A stretch of 64,000 nt of DNA from Microcoleus sp. FACHB-1515 (GTDB lineage Bacteria > Cyanobacteriota > Cyanobacteriia > Elainellales > Elainellaceae). The notes below the pieces were generated by a model. It ran no database searches. It saw nothing but the letters and a program-made list of their open reading frames with translations, and was not told the DNA's origin. The position numbers and the translations under genes are program-made. The stretch covers positions 1 through 64,000 of the forward strand of contig NZ_JACJPO010000011.1 in NCBI RefSeq assembly GCF_014696105.1. Direction: 5' to 3'. Below, piece after piece: positions 49,376 through 64,000 of this stretch (position 1 is its first letter; each line of letters begins with the position of its first letter).

Positions 49376-50173
49376 TTAAGAGCGCTGAAAGCGGAAGGCT
49401 TCGATCGCTTGTGCAGTCAGAAACAAGCCCAACACGACATAGCTGCCAAACAGAATCAGGCTACTGCTGGAAAAAATCCCTTGTATGAAATTGGTGTAGT
49501 GCTTTACGAGCGTTAAATGACCGATCGCCGCGCCGAAATTGCCGCCGATACTGTTTGCAGTTTGGTCAATGACCCAAAGCAAAAGGACGATCGCAAAGGT
49601 CATCACCGCAGCCAAAATTGTGCTATCCGTCAACGACGAAACAAACATGCCCAGCGACAAAATCGCCGCCGCCAGCAAAATTAATCCCAAGTGCCCCAAC
49701 CAAAAAACAGTCGGTTGAATCGGCGGACTCGAAGCAGAGAGTGCAAACGCTTCAAACGCCATGAATGGCAGCAGCATTGTGATGAAAAATGTCAGAACGG
49801 CGAGCAATTTGCCCAGCGCAACTGCCCAGTTTGTGACGGGAGAAGTTGCTAATAATTCCAGTGTGCCGCGCTTGCGTTCTTCGGTATAAAGTCCCATCGA
49901 CAGCATCGGCAACAGGAACAGGGCGATCGATCCCAATACGCTCAAAAATATACTCAAAAACTGATAGGGCACATCGATCGGTGGGCCACCGCCCTGCTGA
50001 TCTTGCGCGGCAGCTCCGACAATTAAACCTTCTGGCCCCAGCAAAATTAACGTAAAGAAAAAGCCACTCAAAACCCAAAAAATTCCGGCAATCACATAGG
50101 CAAACGGTGAGGCAAAATAGCCCTGTAGCTCTTTGCGATAGATGGCGATAATGTTGGCAAAAATAATTCCCAT
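49376..50173 (-). CDS. ABC-2 type transporter permease
   Basis: 265 aa, six membrane helices. Seen: IYRKELQGYFASPFAYVIAGIF, GLYTEERKRGTLELLATSPV (the conserved EERKRGTLE motif of GldF-like permeases) and LGMFVSSLTDSTILAAVMTF. Pairs with the ATPase gene directly upstream (one base apart). Type resembles GldF/NosY-like exporters; substrate unknown. Confidence 0.88.
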   Translation of the reverse strand: MGIIFANIIAIYRKELQGYFASPFAYVIAGIFWVLSGFFFTLILLGPEGLIVGAAAQDQQGGGPPIDVPYQFLSIFLSVLGSIALFLLPMLSMGLYTEERKRGTLELLATSPVTNWAVALGKLLAVLTFFITMLLPFMAFEAFALSASSPPIQPTVFWLGHLGLILLAAAILSLGMFVSSLTDSTILAAVMTFAIVLLLWVIDQTANSIGGNFGAAIGHLTLVKHYTNFIQGIFSSSSLILFGSYVVLGLFLTAQAIEAFRFQRS

Positions 50174-50174
50174 C

Positions 50175-51176
50175 TTAAGCGGCTCCTTCACGCGGTTCGT
50201 CTGATTCGTTCACATCGGCATCAGCAGGATCGATCGCTTCCTCGGTCGTTAGCTGCAAGAACACATCTTCCAGGCTGACCTGCGATCGCCGCATTTCATA
50301 CAGTCCCAAACCCGACTGAACGATCGCCGTTGAGATCGATCGCCCTGCATCAACGGGAGACTGCGACTCGACGCGAATCCGATAGCGTCCTTCTGGCGCA
50401 TCGGTAAGCCGTAGGGATTCGACCGACTGGACACCTTCGATCGCGCCCAGTCGATTCCGCACGGCCTCAAATTCGCCTTCCACTTCGAGTTCATAGCGCG
50501 TTTTGCCACCCAACTGCGTCACAAGCTGATCGGGCGTATTCGTCGCCACGATCCGCCCTTTGTTGATGATCGCCACGCGGCTACAGGTCATGCTGACTTC
50601 TGGCAGAATATGCGTCGAAAGAATAATCGTGTGATCGCCCGCCAAACTTTTGATCAAGTTCCGTACATCGATAATTTGACGCGGATCAAGCCCGACCGTC
50701 GGTTCATCCAGAATGATCGCGGGCGGGTCATGCACGATCGCCTGAGCGATTCCGACCCGCTGCCGAAAGCCTTTTGAGAGTTTGCGAATCAAGACGCGCC
50801 GTTTTTCTTCCAGGTTGCAGCGCTTGAGAGCAGAGGTGACGCGAGTGGCGCGATCGCCCGCTGAAACGCCTTTGATTCGCGCCACGAAATACAAAAAGCT
50901 TTCGACGCTCATATCGGTATACAGCGGCGGCGTTTCGGGCAGGTAGCCGATCCGCTTCCGCACCGCCATCGAGTCGGTATGCACGTCGTGTCCGGCAATT
51001 CGCGCTGTGCCGCTGTTGGCGGGCAAATACCCGGTCAAAATCCGCATCGTCGTGGTTTTTCCGGCTCCGTTTGGTCCCAGAAATCCCAGAATTTCCCCTG
51101 GTTCAACGGCAAAAGAAACGTCTGCGATCGCCGGAGTGGAAGCGTAAACCTTGGTTAAATTTTCGACTTCGATCAT
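50175..51176 (-). CDS. ABC transporter ATP-binding protein (GldA/Nod-like)
   Basis: 333 aa. Walker A GPNGAGKTTTM, signature region KLSKGFRQRVGIAQAIVHDP, Walker B AIILDEPTVGLDPRQI and H-loop STHILPEV. The LSKGFRQRV variant of the signature is normal for the Nod/GldA subfamily. A C-terminal ~100 residues includes RYELEVEGEF. ATG 51176 (MIEVENLTKVYAS) is chosen over the longer frame. Confidence 0.92.
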   Translation of the reverse strand: MIEVENLTKVYASTPAIADVSFAVEPGEILGFLGPNGAGKTTTMRILTGYLPANSGTARIAGHDVHTDSMAVRKRIGYLPETPPLYTDMSVESFLYFVARIKGVSAGDRATRVTSALKRCNLEEKRRVLIRKLSKGFRQRVGIAQAIVHDPPAIILDEPTVGLDPRQIIDVRNLIKSLAGDHTIILSTHILPEVSMTCSRVAIINKGRIVATNTPDQLVTQLGGKTRYELEVEGEFEAVRNRLGAIEGVQSVESLRLTDAPEGRYRIRVESQSPVDAGRSISTAIVQSGLGLYEMRRSQVSLEDVFLQLTTEEAIDPADADVNESDEPREGAA

Positions 51177-51324
51177 ATTTCTCACTTCCGAAGAACGTTT
51201 CCAGGCCAAACTAGCCTACTCAATCGACGACCTTCTGTGTAGCCGCGCTGCCTATTGTAGGCGATCGCGATGGGGCAGGGTTGCCTGAGATAAAATGTTG
51301 GGTAAATTGCGCGATCGCCACGCC

Positions 51325-58584: not shown

Positions 58585-60864
58585 TTAGTGGATCATCCTG
58601 CGATCGTGTAGGTAGCGGTCGATCGCTACATCCAAAGTGGGTAGCAAGATGCCGCGTTCACTGCCCAACACGCTGTAGCTCGGACGCGCTGCGGCTAGAC
58701 CGAGTGCTTTTGTTGGACGCGCCTCAACGTTTGCTTGAGTCAAACCTGCTTGCTTTGCCACCTGACGAGCCAAGTCTGCCCAGGCGATCGCGCCCTGATT
58801 GGCTAAATGCCAAATGCCGCTTTCACCATCTATCAGAAGGTCGAGCGTGGCATGAACCAGATCAGGAACATAAGTAGGAGAAACAACGGTATCATCGGCG
58901 GCAACAAAATGATTGTGATCCATGAGCGATCGCAAGGCAACTGTGAGGAAATTATAGTTGTCCCAAGGGCTAAAGAAAGCGCTGGTGCGAATTACTAAAG
59001 CGCCAGGGTGATGCTGCAAAACCCAGCGTTCTGCCTGCGCTTTACTGTGTCCATAAACGTTGAGTGGCGCAACCCGATCGCGCTCTAGATACGGCTGATT
59101 GCGATCGCCATCAAACACCAGATCAGAAGAAAAATTAACCAGTTGGATATCGCGTTGAGCACAGATTTCCGCCAAAATTGCTGCTCCATCGGCATTGATG
59201 CAGCGACACAACTGCGGTTCCCGTTCGGCATCATCAACGCGCACATAGCCCGCCGTATTAACGACTGCCCAAGGCTGCAATTCATCCAGCACCTGCTGCA
59301 CCATTTCGGGCTGGGTGATGTCCATTTCCTGCCGCGACAGCAAGTAGTAAGGAATGCCGCGCAGTTCGCACAGTCGAGCAAAAGCCTGACCCAACGTGCC
59401 CGTCGCGCCCGTAATTAGAAGTGGCGGCACAGCGATCGCCTTTTGAGCTTGCCGCATCAGAGGCGAGTGAGCGATCGTTGGCGCATCGATGCAGCCGTTC
59501 AGGTCAGAGCAGATTACAGGCGGATAGCGTAGTCGCTGCGATCGCTGCCACCAGCCCGCCCCCAACAATAGCGGATGGTTGTAGGGTTGTCCCGCTGCGA
59601 AATCAGTCATCATCTGAGCGATCGCCGTCGGTCGCGGAGCGGGCGATCGCAGATCAAACACGCCTGGTTCATAGAAATCATCGGCGCGAGTCACCAGACT
59701 ATTCCAGCTATAGCTTCCCAGCAGCGACCAAACCGTGACGGCTCGAAAGTCAATGCCCTGATCGCGTAAGCGTTGTGCAACCTGCCAAATTTCATTGAGC
59801 CAGCGCAACTGTTCTTCCCTTGTGCAGCCCAAATGTGCTTCCGTGATGGCGATCGGCTGCTGGTAACGTTCCCAGACTTCTTTGAGCAGCGCGACATGAT
59901 CGTAGAGTCCTTCGGCACGAACGCCGATCGCTTCCACATCTGCGTACTGATGCCGACCGTTGCCGCCGTGCGTGTGCGACGGATAGCGATCGAGCCGTTC
60001 ATCCAAAAAGCGATCGCTACAGACATAGCGGTTGATGCCGATGATGTCCGGCGGACAAGGATTGTCTTGAAACCAGTGCAGTTCCGCTGGAGCAATGCCA
60101 GCATTCAGCAGGTAACTCCACAGCGGATGATCGCGGTTGACCCGACCGCAGAGCAAATCGAATGACAGCCAGCGGCGATCGTTCTCAAACTCAGCTTGAT
60201 AGCTCAGCAGTGGCGTACTGAAGATCTTGCCTAAATCTTCGGTTTGCAGCAGTTGCGCCTGCGAATTCACCTGCCGGATCGATCGCATCGCCAGCACCGT
60301 TCCCCGACACTGATTGAGCAGAGCGCGAAGAAACGTATTCTCGTTGCGCCCGTGCGGATACCAGTGACCGTACAGGCCGCTAAACCGAGCGGTCGTGAGC
60401 GGTTCGTTAATGGGCGTGTAGCAGTCGAGCCAGGGATAGCGATCGGCCACTGCCCGCGCAAAGTTGGCCAGCTTTTCGGGAAAGGCCGAATCGATCAAGC
60501 TGGTGTGGCGGGGGCCGCTGCCGTGATGCACCAGTCCAGCGATCGGGCGAATCCCAAGCTGTTGCAGTCGGATCAGCCGTTCGTCTGTCCATTGCCAGTC
60601 GAGTACACCGTCTGGGGCGATGCGTTCCCACAAAACGGGATATCGCATCGCCCGAATTCCCAGTGCGGCAAATCGATCGAGGTCGTCAAGCCGCTCGGCA
60701 TGACCGTTGCGCTCTAGCTGGTCGAAATAGCGATCGCCCACACGATTGACGGTACATTCAACGCCTGCCCAAATTTCGAGCGGTGGCAGGTTGGTTGGTT
60801 GGCAATGCATTTGTGGATGAGTTAAGAAGAGTGGAAATTGAAAGGAACGATCGCGACTAATCAT
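58585..60864 (-). CDS. Glycoside hydrolase family 1-like/RmlD fusion
   Basis: 759 aa. N-terminal about 20-410 is like GH1 glycosidases: GIRAMRYPVLWERIAPDG, YTPINEPLTTARFSGLYGH (acid/base Glu in NEP) and PIAITEAHLG (nucleophile-type Glu, in ITEAH rather than ITENG). From about 470 follows dTDP-4-dehydrorhamnose reductase-like RmlD: ITGATGTLGQAFARL, VVNTAGYVRVDDAE, FSSDLVFDG, and the YGHSKAQAE catalytic Tyr-Lys. The gene directly downstream of the GT-Glf fusion in transcription order, 42 bp away. Likely cell-surface or capsular polysaccharide metabolism; order of action unclear. Confidence 0.88.
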   Translation of the reverse strand: MISRDRSFQFPLFLTHPQMHCQPTNLPPLEIWAGVECTVNRVGDRYFDQLERNGHAERLDDLDRFAALGIRAMRYPVLWERIAPDGVLDWQWTDERLIRLQQLGIRPIAGLVHHGSGPRHTSLIDSAFPEKLANFARAVADRYPWLDCYTPINEPLTTARFSGLYGHWYPHGRNENTFLRALLNQCRGTVLAMRSIRQVNSQAQLLQTEDLGKIFSTPLLSYQAEFENDRRWLSFDLLCGRVNRDHPLWSYLLNAGIAPAELHWFQDNPCPPDIIGINRYVCSDRFLDERLDRYPSHTHGGNGRHQYADVEAIGVRAEGLYDHVALLKEVWERYQQPIAITEAHLGCTREEQLRWLNEIWQVAQRLRDQGIDFRAVTVWSLLGSYSWNSLVTRADDFYEPGVFDLRSPAPRPTAIAQMMTDFAAGQPYNHPLLLGAGWWQRSQRLRYPPVICSDLNGCIDAPTIAHSPLMRQAQKAIAVPPLLITGATGTLGQAFARLCELRGIPYYLLSRQEMDITQPEMVQQVLDELQPWAVVNTAGYVRVDDAEREPQLCRCINADGAAILAEICAQRDIQLVNFSSDLVFDGDRNQPYLERDRVAPLNVYGHSKAQAERWVLQHHPGALVIRTSAFFSPWDNYNFLTVALRSLMDHNHFVAADDTVVSPTYVPDLVHATLDLLIDGESGIWHLANQGAIAWADLARQVAKQAGLTQANVEARPTKALGLAAARPSYSVLGSERGILLPTLDVAIDRYLHDRRMIH

Positions 60865-60906
60865 TGATTTCTAATTGCGATCGTTCCAGTGAATGCGTCA
60901 CGCAGC

Positions 60907-63324
60907 TCAAATTTTTTCAAGCGAGTTGTTCACAATTTGCTTGTAAACTGTGAGGGCTTGAGCAACACACTGATCCATGTTGTAGTATTTGTAGGTTGCT
61001 AATCGACCAACGAAATGCACGTTTGGTGTCGCATCCGCAAGCGCTTTATATTGCTTATAGATTTCGGCATTTTCAGGACGCGGAACCGGATAGTAAGGAT
61101 CGCCTTCTGCCTGCGGAAATTCATAGACAACACTGGTTTTGGAATGTTCTTGCCCAGTGAGATATTTGAACTCGGTAATGCGCGTGTAGAGGTGTTCGTT
61201 GGGATAGTTGACGACAGGCGCAGGCTGAAAAATCGGCTTGTCGTGCGTTTCATGTTTGAAGCTGAGCGATCGATAGGGCAGCTTGCCAAACCGATAGTTG
61301 AAAAACTCATCCACAGGACCGCTGTACACCATTTCGCGACAGGGAATCGTTTTCTCAATTTCGCGATAGTCGGTGTTGAGCATCACTTTAATGTTCGGAT
61401 GATTGAGCATGTTTTCAAACATCTTGGTGAAGCCATGTAGCGGCATCGCCTGATAGCTATCGGTGAAATAGCGATCGTCGCGATTAGTTCGCATTGGGAT
61501 ACGAGCGATTACGGATCGATCGAGTTCCGACGGATCAAGTTCCCACTGTTTGCGCGTGTAGTTGCGGAAAAACTTTTCATAAAGCTGCCGTCCGATCTTG
61601 CTCACTACAACGTCTTCAGAAGTGTAGATATGATCTTTCGGTTCTGCCAGCGATGCAAGAAATTCTTCTACCTGGAAGGAATTCAAATTCAATCCATAGA
61701 ACTTGTTAATTGTGTCGAGATTGATCGGAATCGGCAGCAGTTGACCATCGACGCTCGCAAGAACGCGATGTTCATAGGAGCGCCATTCGGTGAATTGAGA
61801 TAGATATTCAAATACCTCACGCGAATTGGTGTGGAAGATGTGTGGACCGTATTTGTGAACCAGAATGCCAGCGCGATCGTAGTGATCATAAGCGTTTCCG
61901 CCGATGTGGTTGCGGCGATCGACCACTAGCACTTTCTTCCCCGATGTCGCTAATTGCTGTGCAATCACGCTGCCAGAAAATCCGGCTCCAACAATCAAGT
62001 AATCGAACGCAAATTCTCTTGATTCGGCTGAAATTCGGGGAATTCCTGTTAATGAAGATTGTTTGGCAGCGATCGCTTCTTCAATGAGTTTAAGCATCGA
62101 TGCCTGTGTGCGATCCCAGGAAATTTGCTCCAGGAACGCATCAACTCGACTCATCCAGTTCGATTGCGGCGTATCTTCGCGCATTGCTGCTTCGGCTGCG
62201 GCAACAAACTCGATCGCGCTATCTGCAATTCGCACCATTTTTTGCTGACCATAAGGCCGCACCACATCGCGAATTGAAGTGGAAACAACAGGCTTTCCGG
62301 CTGCCAAATATTCCGGTGTTTTAGTGGGGCTGATAAACTGCGTCGATTCATTGCGGGCAAACGGCAGCATCGCCACATCCCATCCGGCTAGATAGTTCGG
62401 TAAGTCCTGATAGGTTTTACCGCCGAGATAGTGGATATTTTCATGCTGCGGCAGCGTCGCCGGATCGATTTTGACAACGGGGCCAATCATCACGAACTGC
62501 CAGTCGGGACGAGTATTCGCAATATCAGCTAATAGCTGAATATCCATTCGTTCATCAATCACGCCAAAGAAACCCAGTCGCGGATGCGGAATGTTGGCTT
62601 GGTCGGCAGGTTCTTCCGTTATCAATCGCGCCTGAGCAAAATGCGCGACCTCCACACTGCTAGGAAAAGCGTAGATATTTTCATGCTGCTTGCGCTTGGC
62701 TTCGTAAAGGCTTTGTCCGCCCGTAAATACCACATCTGCACGACGAAAAATCTCGGCTTCCCTGGCTTTCAGCGTTGGGGAAGCCCCCTTAAAGGCTGAT
62801 AGTTCATCCATGCAGTCGTAGACGATCGCCAGCGGTTCCAAATGATAGGAAAAAGCCAGCGCCATCGGCGTGTAATACCAGCAAATGTAGCGATCGATGC
62901 TGTATTCTTTGAGCAATTGCTCAAGCAGTCGTTGCTGGGCAAAGGTTGAGTCAATTTCCCCTAGTTCTGTGGGCAGGTGAGGAATCACAATCCAAACGTT
63001 GTCAGTCGGATTACAAATTTCCAGATGTTCTTCAATGCCTGCCTGGGCGATCGGTTCTTCGATGAAAAAGACACGCTGCTGTTGAGCAAAACGGCTCAGG
63101 AGATGCTGAGGTCTTTGATACACAAAATTCCAGCGCAAGTGCGAAAAGCAAATCAAATCAGCGGTTGCGGCGATCGTCGTTTTTGGTTCATCTAGATCAT
63201 CTACAAATTTCGATGAGGACAGATATAAGCTAGAGGACAACACCTCACTAGACAGCAATGTTTGCTGATTTTGCGAACCGTTTTTGTAATGATTATCTTG
63301 CGATCGAGTGGGCTGGTACGACAT
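60907..63324 (-). CDS. glf: Glycosyltransferase-UDP-galactopyranose mutase fusion
   Basis: 805 aa. Residues about 50-425 form a GT-B glycosyltransferase (FSHLRWNFVYQRPQHLLSRF, LAIVYDCMDELSAFKGA, FFGVIDERMDIQLLADIA, SPTKTPEYLAAGKPVVST). From about 440 to 805 is Glf: FDYLIVGAGFSGSVIAQQLA (FAD site), GGNAYDHYD, KYGPHIFHTNSREVFEYLSQ, NYTRKQWELDPSELDRSVIA and NVHFVGRLATYKYYNMDQCV. Glf makes UDP-galactofuranose from UDP-galactopyranose. The fusion suggests a direct Galf-transfer or coordinated step. Upstream palindrome at 63350-63366. Confidence 0.88.
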   Translation of the reverse strand: MSYQPTRSQDNHYKNGSQNQQTLLSSEVLSSSLYLSSSKFVDDLDEPKTTIAATADLICFSHLRWNFVYQRPQHLLSRFAQQQRVFFIEEPIAQAGIEEHLEICNPTDNVWIVIPHLPTELGEIDSTFAQQRLLEQLLKEYSIDRYICWYYTPMALAFSYHLEPLAIVYDCMDELSAFKGASPTLKAREAEIFRRADVVFTGGQSLYEAKRKQHENIYAFPSSVEVAHFAQARLITEEPADQANIPHPRLGFFGVIDERMDIQLLADIANTRPDWQFVMIGPVVKIDPATLPQHENIHYLGGKTYQDLPNYLAGWDVAMLPFARNESTQFISPTKTPEYLAAGKPVVSTSIRDVVRPYGQQKMVRIADSAIEFVAAAEAAMREDTPQSNWMSRVDAFLEQISWDRTQASMLKLIEEAIAAKQSSLTGIPRISAESREFAFDYLIVGAGFSGSVIAQQLATSGKKVLVVDRRNHIGGNAYDHYDRAGILVHKYGPHIFHTNSREVFEYLSQFTEWRSYEHRVLASVDGQLLPIPINLDTINKFYGLNLNSFQVEEFLASLAEPKDHIYTSEDVVVSKIGRQLYEKFFRNYTRKQWELDPSELDRSVIARIPMRTNRDDRYFTDSYQAMPLHGFTKMFENMLNHPNIKVMLNTDYREIEKTIPCREMVYSGPVDEFFNYRFGKLPYRSLSFKHETHDKPIFQPAPVVNYPNEHLYTRITEFKYLTGQEHSKTSVVYEFPQAEGDPYYPVPRPENAEIYKQYKALADATPNVHFVGRLATYKYYNMDQCVAQALTVYKQIVNNSLEKI

Positions 63325-63853: not shown

Positions 63854-64000
63854 ATGCAGCCCGATTTTTCCTCAAACATCGTCTCTGGAAACGCGCTTGC
63901 AGATGGTGCTAGTCGGCGCGGCTGGTTCGTGGGGCACTTCATCGATGCTCATCCTGCCCGCCAAACTGCGGATGTTGAAGTGAAGTGGGCAGCTCATGCA
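63854..64000 (+). CDS. Partial gene, cupin-like hypothetical protein N-terminus
   Basis: The first 49 codons are in the window, with the 3' end cut. MQPDFSSNIVSGNALADGAS, then RRGWFVGHFIDAHPARQTAD and VEVKWAAHA. The GWFVGHFI...VEVKW pattern resembles small cupin-like proteins of cyanobacteria (sometimes mis-annotated as signal peptidase). Low certainty because no barrel motif is within the visible part. Confidence 0.45.
   Translation, partial: MQPDFSSNIVSGNALADGASRRGWFVGHFIDAHPARQTADVEVKWAAHA

Follow-up and report, generated by a model that had tools for sequence, protein, structure and literature searches.

A conserved pair of fusion genes as a possible core for galactofuranose metabolism in cyanobacteria and other bacteria

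Two adjacent fusion genes, one joining a glycosyltransferase to a UDP-galactopyranose mutase (GT-Glf) and the other joining a family 1 glycosidase-like domain to an RmlD-like domain (GH1-RmlD), occur together in a cyanobacterial genome and, in recurring arrangements, in bacteria of other phyla. We put the odds at about even that these two proteins constitute the core of a module for the synthesis and turnover of galactofuranose (Galf). Here, we describe the gene pair, its distribution, the residues conserved in its predicted active sites, and its neighbors, and we weigh the competing explanations.

Architecture of the gene pair

The stretch of DNA analyzed here, called the window, comprises the first 64000 bases of a contig in a 5.8 Mb genome, the near relatives of which, in our scans, are cyanobacteria. 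The original prediction placed two bifunctional fusion genes side by side, and both open reading frames are there, on the minus strand, with all four of their parts recognized by Pfam or NCBIfam. GT-Glf lies upstream and GH1-RmlD follows it. The features are as follows.

60907-63324, minus strand: GT-Glf fusion gene, 805 aa (ORF, Pfam, and NCBIfam)
62050-63177, minus strand: glycosyltransferase domain, predicted GT-B fold, residues ~50-425 (Pfam Glyco_trans_1_4, AF2 model, and Foldseek)
60925-62013, minus strand: UDP-galactopyranose mutase domain by sequence, residues ~438-800 (3hdq match; TIGR00031 above cut-off)
60865-60906, minus strand: intergenic gap of 42 bp (coordinates and sequence)
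58585-60864, minus strand: GH1-RmlD fusion gene, 759 aa (ORF and Pfam)
59575-60789, minus strand: GH1 domain, residues 26-430 (VIA-align Z 36.2 to 2j78)
60403-60405, minus strand: codon of Glu154, predicted acid/base, in TPxNEP (51/51; aligned to NEP of solved GH1 enzymes)
59839-59841, minus strand: codon of Glu342, predicted nucleophile, in TE(A/V)H (51/51; aligned to TEN of solved GH1 enzymes)
58594-59430, minus strand: RmlD-like SDR domain, residues 479-757 (VIA-align Z 38.1 to 1vl0)
63854-64000, plus strand: beginning of a divergently oriented gene block running past the window edge (L070:6855-12898)

In GT-Glf, Pfam detects Glyco_trans_1_4 at residues 249-379, NAD_binding_8 at 444-511, and GLF at 584-780 (263 bits). 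In GH1-RmlD, it detects Glyco_hydro_1 at residues 60-388 (35.9 bits; cut-off 22.6) and RmlD_sub_bind at residues 482-736 (224.8 bits). Gene starts are approximate because ORF calling took the longest open frame. The conserved part of GH1-RmlD begins near residue 25 and relatives start later in the alignment; the true start may be an internal ATG at about residue 19. Identical architecture recurs in loci of many species, which rules out an assembly artefact for either fusion.

A linkage kept in two phyla

Scanning for the GH1 domain, at one genome per species, revealed at least 571 relatives. We read the best 80 of these, which lie in 79 loci, and the following counts concern these best 79 loci among at least 571 relatives. 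The GH1-RmlD fusion is complete in 78, and the 79th ends at a contig end. Glf is encoded upstream, on the same strand and within 800 bp of GH1-RmlD, in 63 of the 79; this Glf is fused to the GT in 40 cases and preceded immediately by a separate GT gene in 17, with no GT seen in the remaining six. The other 16 loci comprise one with divergent Glf, two with Glf downstream, two with Glf upstream but far away, nine with no Glf, and two more that lack Glf but sit near a contig edge. None of the nine Glf-less loci has a contig edge within 1.5 kb upstream; they come from eight genomes, six of which carry Glf elsewhere (74-80% identity) and two of which carry the GT only. Two further genomes, from loci near contig edges, have neither Glf nor GT.

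Record titles of the best 79 loci name cyanobacteria, Acidobacteria, Chloroflexi/Thermomicrobiales, Abditibacteria, and Gemmatimonadales. Plasmid records, 63 in total, add Deinococcus, Microvirga, Rhizobium, Caballeronia, Sphingobium, Runella, and others; among the 40 plasmid matches listed of the 63, those ranked 26-40, at 28-32% identity, form a more distant group. Seven annotated plasmid loci were read. In these, glf is adjacent in Gloeothece, Caballeronia, Sphingomonas, and Mesorhizobium, there is no glf near GH1-RmlD in the two Deinococcus loci, and the Runella locus has the GT only. An eighth plasmid locus, from Microvirga, carries no annotation.

Genome-wide counts were made in two classes, each a set of related, non-independent genomes. 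Among 291 genomes of the window's class, GH1 is present in 35, Glf in 50, and both in 34; only G386 has GH1 without Glf, and its GH1 is located close to where a contig starts. In 34 of those 35 genomes, no more than 5.5 kb separates Glf from a GH1 copy, and 33 of the 42 GH1 copies are directly downstream of Glf. Among 118 genomes of the acidobacterial class, GH1 is present in nine and Glf in 27, and all nine GH1 genomes have both. The link between GH1-RmlD and Glf holds in two phyla. Linkage in 63/79 loci, together with co-occurrence in 34/35 and 9/9 genomes, rejects chance juxtaposition. The original prediction treated the two fusions as one unit and named rare co-occurrence as an outcome that would count against it; the survey instead found GH1-RmlD with this Glf as a conserved, co-inherited pair in 34/35 and 9/9 genomes.

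Additional copies exist. Five cyanobacteria (G343, G375, G380, G398, and G301) carry GH1-RmlD in two or three copies, some of which lie far from Glf. The window's genome has a second GH1-RmlD (L069:10503-12746; G000:C40:34515-36734) that is 76% identical and far from any Glf. Beside it are a 227-aa ORF whose match to the GT (36%) is confined to the N-terminal half, an ATP-grasp gene, and a beta-aspartyl-peptidase-like gene, with GH43 and PhyH genes ~5-6 kb off.

A mutase joined to a glycosyltransferase

By sequence, the Glf part is clearly recognizable as a UDP-galactopyranose mutase. Specifically, it passes the NCBIfam equivalog UDP-GALP_mutase, TIGR00031 (402.9 bits; cut-off 303.75), and matches the solved UDP-galactopyranose mutase 3hdq at 627 bits across residues 432-797 (366 residues). 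The curated model thereby upholds the expectation that GT-Glf contains a UDP-galactofuranose-forming part. What sets this Glf apart from bacterial mutases such as 3hdq is its company: it often bears a fused N-terminal GT-B glycosyltransferase, and it resides in a GH1-like/Leloir neighborhood.

The GT domain matched nothing by sequence among solved structures, after which its fold was predicted with AF2 (39 sequences; pLDDT 91.7). Foldseek assigns the model to GT-B, with MshA, sucrose-phosphate synthase, BshA, WaaG, and PimA as nearest structures and one row titled family GT4. Thus, as modeled, the domain has a GT-B fold close to GT4 enzymes. Several enzymes of these types use small molecules or lipids as acceptors, and we take this feature to favor a small Galf product. 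Proximity of the modeled fold to retaining MshA-like enzymes suggests retention and, with it, an alpha-Galf product.

Predicted active sites of GH1-RmlD

GH1-RmlD was modeled with AlphaFold2 from 51 sequences (mean pLDDT 88.4; residues 1-21 below pLDDT 50). The GH1 domain of the model (residues 26-430) aligns with Thermotoga maritima beta-glucosidase 2j78 with a VIA-align Z of 36.2 and an rmsd of 2.9 over 378 residues. This alignment, together with a Pfam PF00232 score above cut-off, assigns the modeled domain the (beta/alpha)8 GH1 fold.

Conservation was assessed in an alignment, A4, of the proteins of 51 of the 79 loci, window included. Glu154, Glu342, His114, and Trp387 are invariant (51/51). 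Glu154 aligns with the NEP acid/base of solved GH1 enzymes, and Glu342, in the sequence ITEAH, aligns with the TEN nucleophile. The nucleophile motif reads TE(A/V)H in 50/51 and has Tyr for His, with the Glu kept, in the remaining copy; the TENG form that is usual, although not required, in GH1 is absent from the 51 aligned sequences. ITEAH had been flagged beforehand as a non-standard nucleophile motif. The motif is present and is not TENG, but it is no oddity of one protein: TE(A/V)H is family-wide and its Glu is intact. The idea that ITEAH renders GH1 inactive is dismissed because the nucleophile Glu is kept in 51/51. At position 386, A4 has Asp in 49/51 and Glu in one; the window copy is the only one with Ser (codon at 59707-59709). 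In sum, GH1-RmlD resembles GH1 beta-glycosidases such as 2j78 in fold and in both catalytic Glu residues. It differs in its identity to the listed structures (14-20%), in TE(A/V)H for TENG, in its C-terminal SDR domain, and in the residue that aligns with the Glu of LEW/FEW in solved enzymes, which is Asp or, in the window copy, Ser.

The C-terminal domain (residues 479-757) is modeled with an RmlD fold, aligning with RmlD 1vl0 with a VIA-align Z of 38.1 and an rmsd of 1.7 over 276 residues. In A4, Ser580 is invariant, Tyr604 is present in 49/51, and Lys608 in 48/51; the window copy has both Tyr and Lys. Each of three glycines examined in the nucleotide-binding turn is kept in at least 49/51. 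The losses fall in L150, which lacks the Lys, and in L156 and L160, which lack both Tyr and Lys; all three retain both GH1 Glu residues. Given an invariant Glu pair next to SDR Tyr and Lys residues at 49 and 48 of 51, the reductase site is under weaker constraint than the glycosidase site.

The fused domain shares its fold, YxxxK, and Ser with the dTDP-4-dehydrorhamnose reductases 1vl0 and 3sc6. It departs from them in several respects. It scores 217.5 bits against the curated RmlD equivalog TIGR01214, a near miss of the 224.05 cut-off. The Trp of the RTSW motif in the two solved RmlD sequences, at a position that we take to be in the substrate pocket, is Ala (RTSA) in 47/51 fused copies. Finally, it is fused to GH1 and lies apart from a separate RmlC-RmlD pair encoded elsewhere in the window's genome. 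The original prediction envisaged a glycan containing both rhamnose and galactofuranose. These three departures (the missed model, the differing pocket residue, and the separate RmlC-RmlD pair) speak against rhamnose, and we reject a rhamnose glycan as the leading view; the galactofuranose component is supported by Glf and by the Leloir and furanosidase-like neighbors.

The same findings bear on a fuller version of the rhamnose view, namely, that the genes belong to an exopolysaccharide or O-antigen module that exports a rhamnose/Galf repeat polymer, with the RmlD part forming dTDP-rhamnose. Glf and RmlD families are generally common in exopolysaccharide and O-antigen clusters. Nonetheless, a Pfam scan of ten window ORFs (38-58.5 kb) identified kinases, ABC transporters, a maltose-acetyltransferase-like protein, and others, with no polymerase or polysaccharide flippase among them, the genome's RmlC-RmlD pair lies elsewhere, and the fused RmlD falls under the curated cut-off and carries Ala for the Trp of solved RmlD. 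We regard an exported polymer of this kind as improbable. An ABC-2 pair at 49379-51209 is the sole candidate exporter among the scanned window neighbors.

Galactose-related neighbors

In the stretches read around the 79 loci, galK occurs in 21, galT in 19, GH2 in 26, GH43 in 18, and PhyH in 26. Among the loci flanked on each side by at least 8.3 kb (51 in number), galK or galT is present in 24, GH2 or GH43 in 30, and at least one of the four in 34. In 22/79 loci, GH1-RmlD is followed on the same strand, at a distance of no more than 600 bp, by a GalE-type epimerase gene, and one is present in 6/12 acidobacterial loci read; both GalE copies examined pass the galE equivalog cut-off. The recurrence of GalE, GalK, GalT, furanosidase-like GH2, and GH43 nearby supports a Galf pathway.

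In the window's genome, the divergent block (L070:6855-12898) encodes a 132-aa orphan, GH2, galT, an M24-like gene, and galK, with only its first bases inside the window. The galK call derives only from translation similarity (a GHMP-type start) and from the annotated galK of a like-ordered Gloeothece locus. The structure nearest to this GH2 is 7XYR (351 bits; PDB label beta-glucuronidase), and a beta-D-galactofuranosidase structure also matches (257 bits). PMC12243196 describes 7XYR as an uncharacterized GH2_19 protein in a group with furanosidase activities and describes 7XYR itself as having lost the NE motif. In our GH2 alignment of 31 rows, 28 span the site and, unlike 7XYR, all 28 possess the NE motif and the second Glu. 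The neighboring GH2 has group III furanosidases (GH2_18/GH2_19; 9j6m, 7XYR) among its nearest structures; it differs from the domains discussed above in being a neighbor gene outside both fusions, and its putative subfamily follows the nearest structure rather than CAZy's own models.

Other genes recur as well. The M24 (Xaa-Pro peptidase-like) gene is found in 18/79 loci and in many cases sits between galT and galK, e.g., L070:10736-11833. The 132-aa protein (window 63854-64000; L070:6855-7253) has no Pfam or NCBIfam match and recurs in 14/79 loci. An ATP-grasp gene, weakly like the Asp-Met ligase LdmS, accompanies a beta-aspartyl-peptidase-like gene near the module in L098, L102, L110, L119, and L125, and the same pair appears in L130, L138, L146, L148, and L069. 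In Deinococcus ficus (L161), cyanophycin genes lie ~3 kb from the module.

Three glycosidase families together with galK and galT in one neighborhood could also signify a catabolic module, in which GH1, GH2, and GH43 would release galactose from galactosides or galactofuranosides for GalK and GalT, and Glf would run from UDP-Galf to UDP-Galp. The genes that point to synthesis argue otherwise: a GT is fused to, or encoded just before, the upstream Glf in 57/79 loci, and GalE is present in 22/79. We judge a catabolic role for the whole to be rather unlikely.

Exchangeable partners

The components of the module vary. The GT-Glf fusion is optional, in that its two parts are often encoded separately, and GH1-RmlD is absent or replaced in some loci. 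Eighteen acidobacterial genomes have Glf without GH1, and we read 12. All 12 of these loci have the GT, and 10/12 have alongside it a GH1-like protein of ~370-430 aa, without an RmlD part, that we label "ECSTHR." ECSTHR is a remote homolog of the GH1 domain (hhalign probability 99.8%), and both Glu residues are kept in 14/14 sequences. Near acidobacterial GT, Glf, and ECSTHR genes, L191, L195, L196, L198, and L199 encode another stand-alone GH1-like protein, which shows 28-30% identity to the GH1 domain.

On the cyanobacterial side, 16 of the 50 Glf genomes have no GH1-RmlD, including the genome of L209, whose fused GT-Glf is close to that of the window. Nine of the 16 have an adjacent GT, six have Glf without this GT, and one has Glf with GH2, galT, and galK and no ORF matched as GT. 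ECSTHR is present in four of the 16. GT plus Glf is therefore the most stable core, accompanied by a GH1-like partner that has at least two forms and is sometimes missing. The notion that both fusions make one compact unit needs qualification: the pair is conserved, but the two fusions are not equally essential, given how often GT and Glf are encoded apart and given the GT-Glf loci devoid of GH1-RmlD.

The existence of ECSTHR without RmlD, together with fused copies that have a dead SDR site, indicates that, of the two halves of GH1-RmlD, the glycosidase is probably the more essential one. An alternative explanation would make GH1 a transglycosidase that uses a simple glycoside donor, with an RmlD part that is structural or regulatory, as in MAT2B, an RmlD relative with a non-reductase role. 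Such a scheme would accommodate the RmlD-less ECSTHR partner, the loss of the SDR Lys in 3/51 (and of Tyr in two of these) next to an invariant GH1 Glu pair, and the appearance of MAT2B among the structural neighbors of the GH1-RmlD model. It leaves unexplained why Ser, Tyr, and Lys persist in 48/51 and the nucleotide-turn glycines in at least 49/51, features that a purely structural domain does not need. We consider this scheme unlikely, if worth keeping in mind.

A proposed galactofuranose module

We return to the reading that GT-Glf and GH1-RmlD are the core of a Galf synthesis-and-turnover module. UDP-galactopyranose would be supplied by GalE or by GalK/GalT salvage, and the Glf part would convert it to UDP-Galf. 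A GT4-like domain, either fused to Glf or adjacent, would consume this UDP-Galf at once, pulling an unfavorable equilibrium; the acceptor of the Galf would probably be a small molecule or lipid, not an exported polymer. The GH1 site of GH1-RmlD would then trim or transglycosylate the Galf product, and its NAD(P)-binding domain would reduce a keto-sugar or a product-linked carbonyl. Finally, the neighboring GH2 and GH43 furanosidase-like enzymes, together with GalK/GalT, could return galactose to the pool. The overall route would run from UDP-Glc to UDP-Gal, UDP-Galf, and the Galf product, with turnover.

The weakest step of this model concerns GH1-RmlD, our best reading of which, from sequence features, is a putative glycosidase or transglycosidase coupled to a sugar reductase. 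The turnover part also fits imperfectly because a retaining GT would give alpha-Galf, and the GH2 group is described for beta-D-Galf and alpha-L-Araf; the beta-glucuronidase label of the best PDB match likewise counts against a furanosidase reading of GH2. Counting against the module as a whole are the Glf-less loci (9/79), the Glf-distant second GH1-RmlD of the window's genome, the 16/50 cyanobacterial Glf genomes without GH1-RmlD, and the two Deinococcus plasmid loci without nearby Glf.

With these points in view, we tentatively suggest, as a possibility that falls short of even odds, an undescribed Galf-glycoside pathway that many terrestrial and stress-tolerant bacteria of several phyla share and that has moved between them as a unit. 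The mutase-transferase fusion would make a small Galf glycoside or glycolipid, the glycosidase-reductase fusion, or a related stand-alone GH1-like enzyme, would finish it, and dedicated furanosidases and Leloir enzymes would turn it over. The link to terrestrial and stressful habitats is an impression from organism names.

Perspective

What is known of Galf metabolism comes chiefly from mycobacterial, fungal, and O-antigen glycans. Each domain discussed here is already known. In the open literature that we searched, we found no description or characterization of the conserved GT-Glf/GH1-RmlD combination or of the exchange of GH1-RmlD for another GH1-like partner; searches that combined the fused families brought up nothing beyond one unrelated plant paper. 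The original prediction's remark that a compact unit for such a glycan had not been described agrees with this search, in which open papers yielded no published function. Generic gene labels ("family 1 glycosylhydrolase," "glf") make the pathway invisible in annotation.

If our model is correct, it would add a further branch of Galf metabolism in cyanobacteria, acidobacteria, chloroflexi, deinococci, and proteobacteria, and it would provide the first activity for the GH1 group with a C-terminal reductase. The module lends itself to experiment through its two enzymes, its candidate precursor route, and the two partner proteins that can take each other's place.
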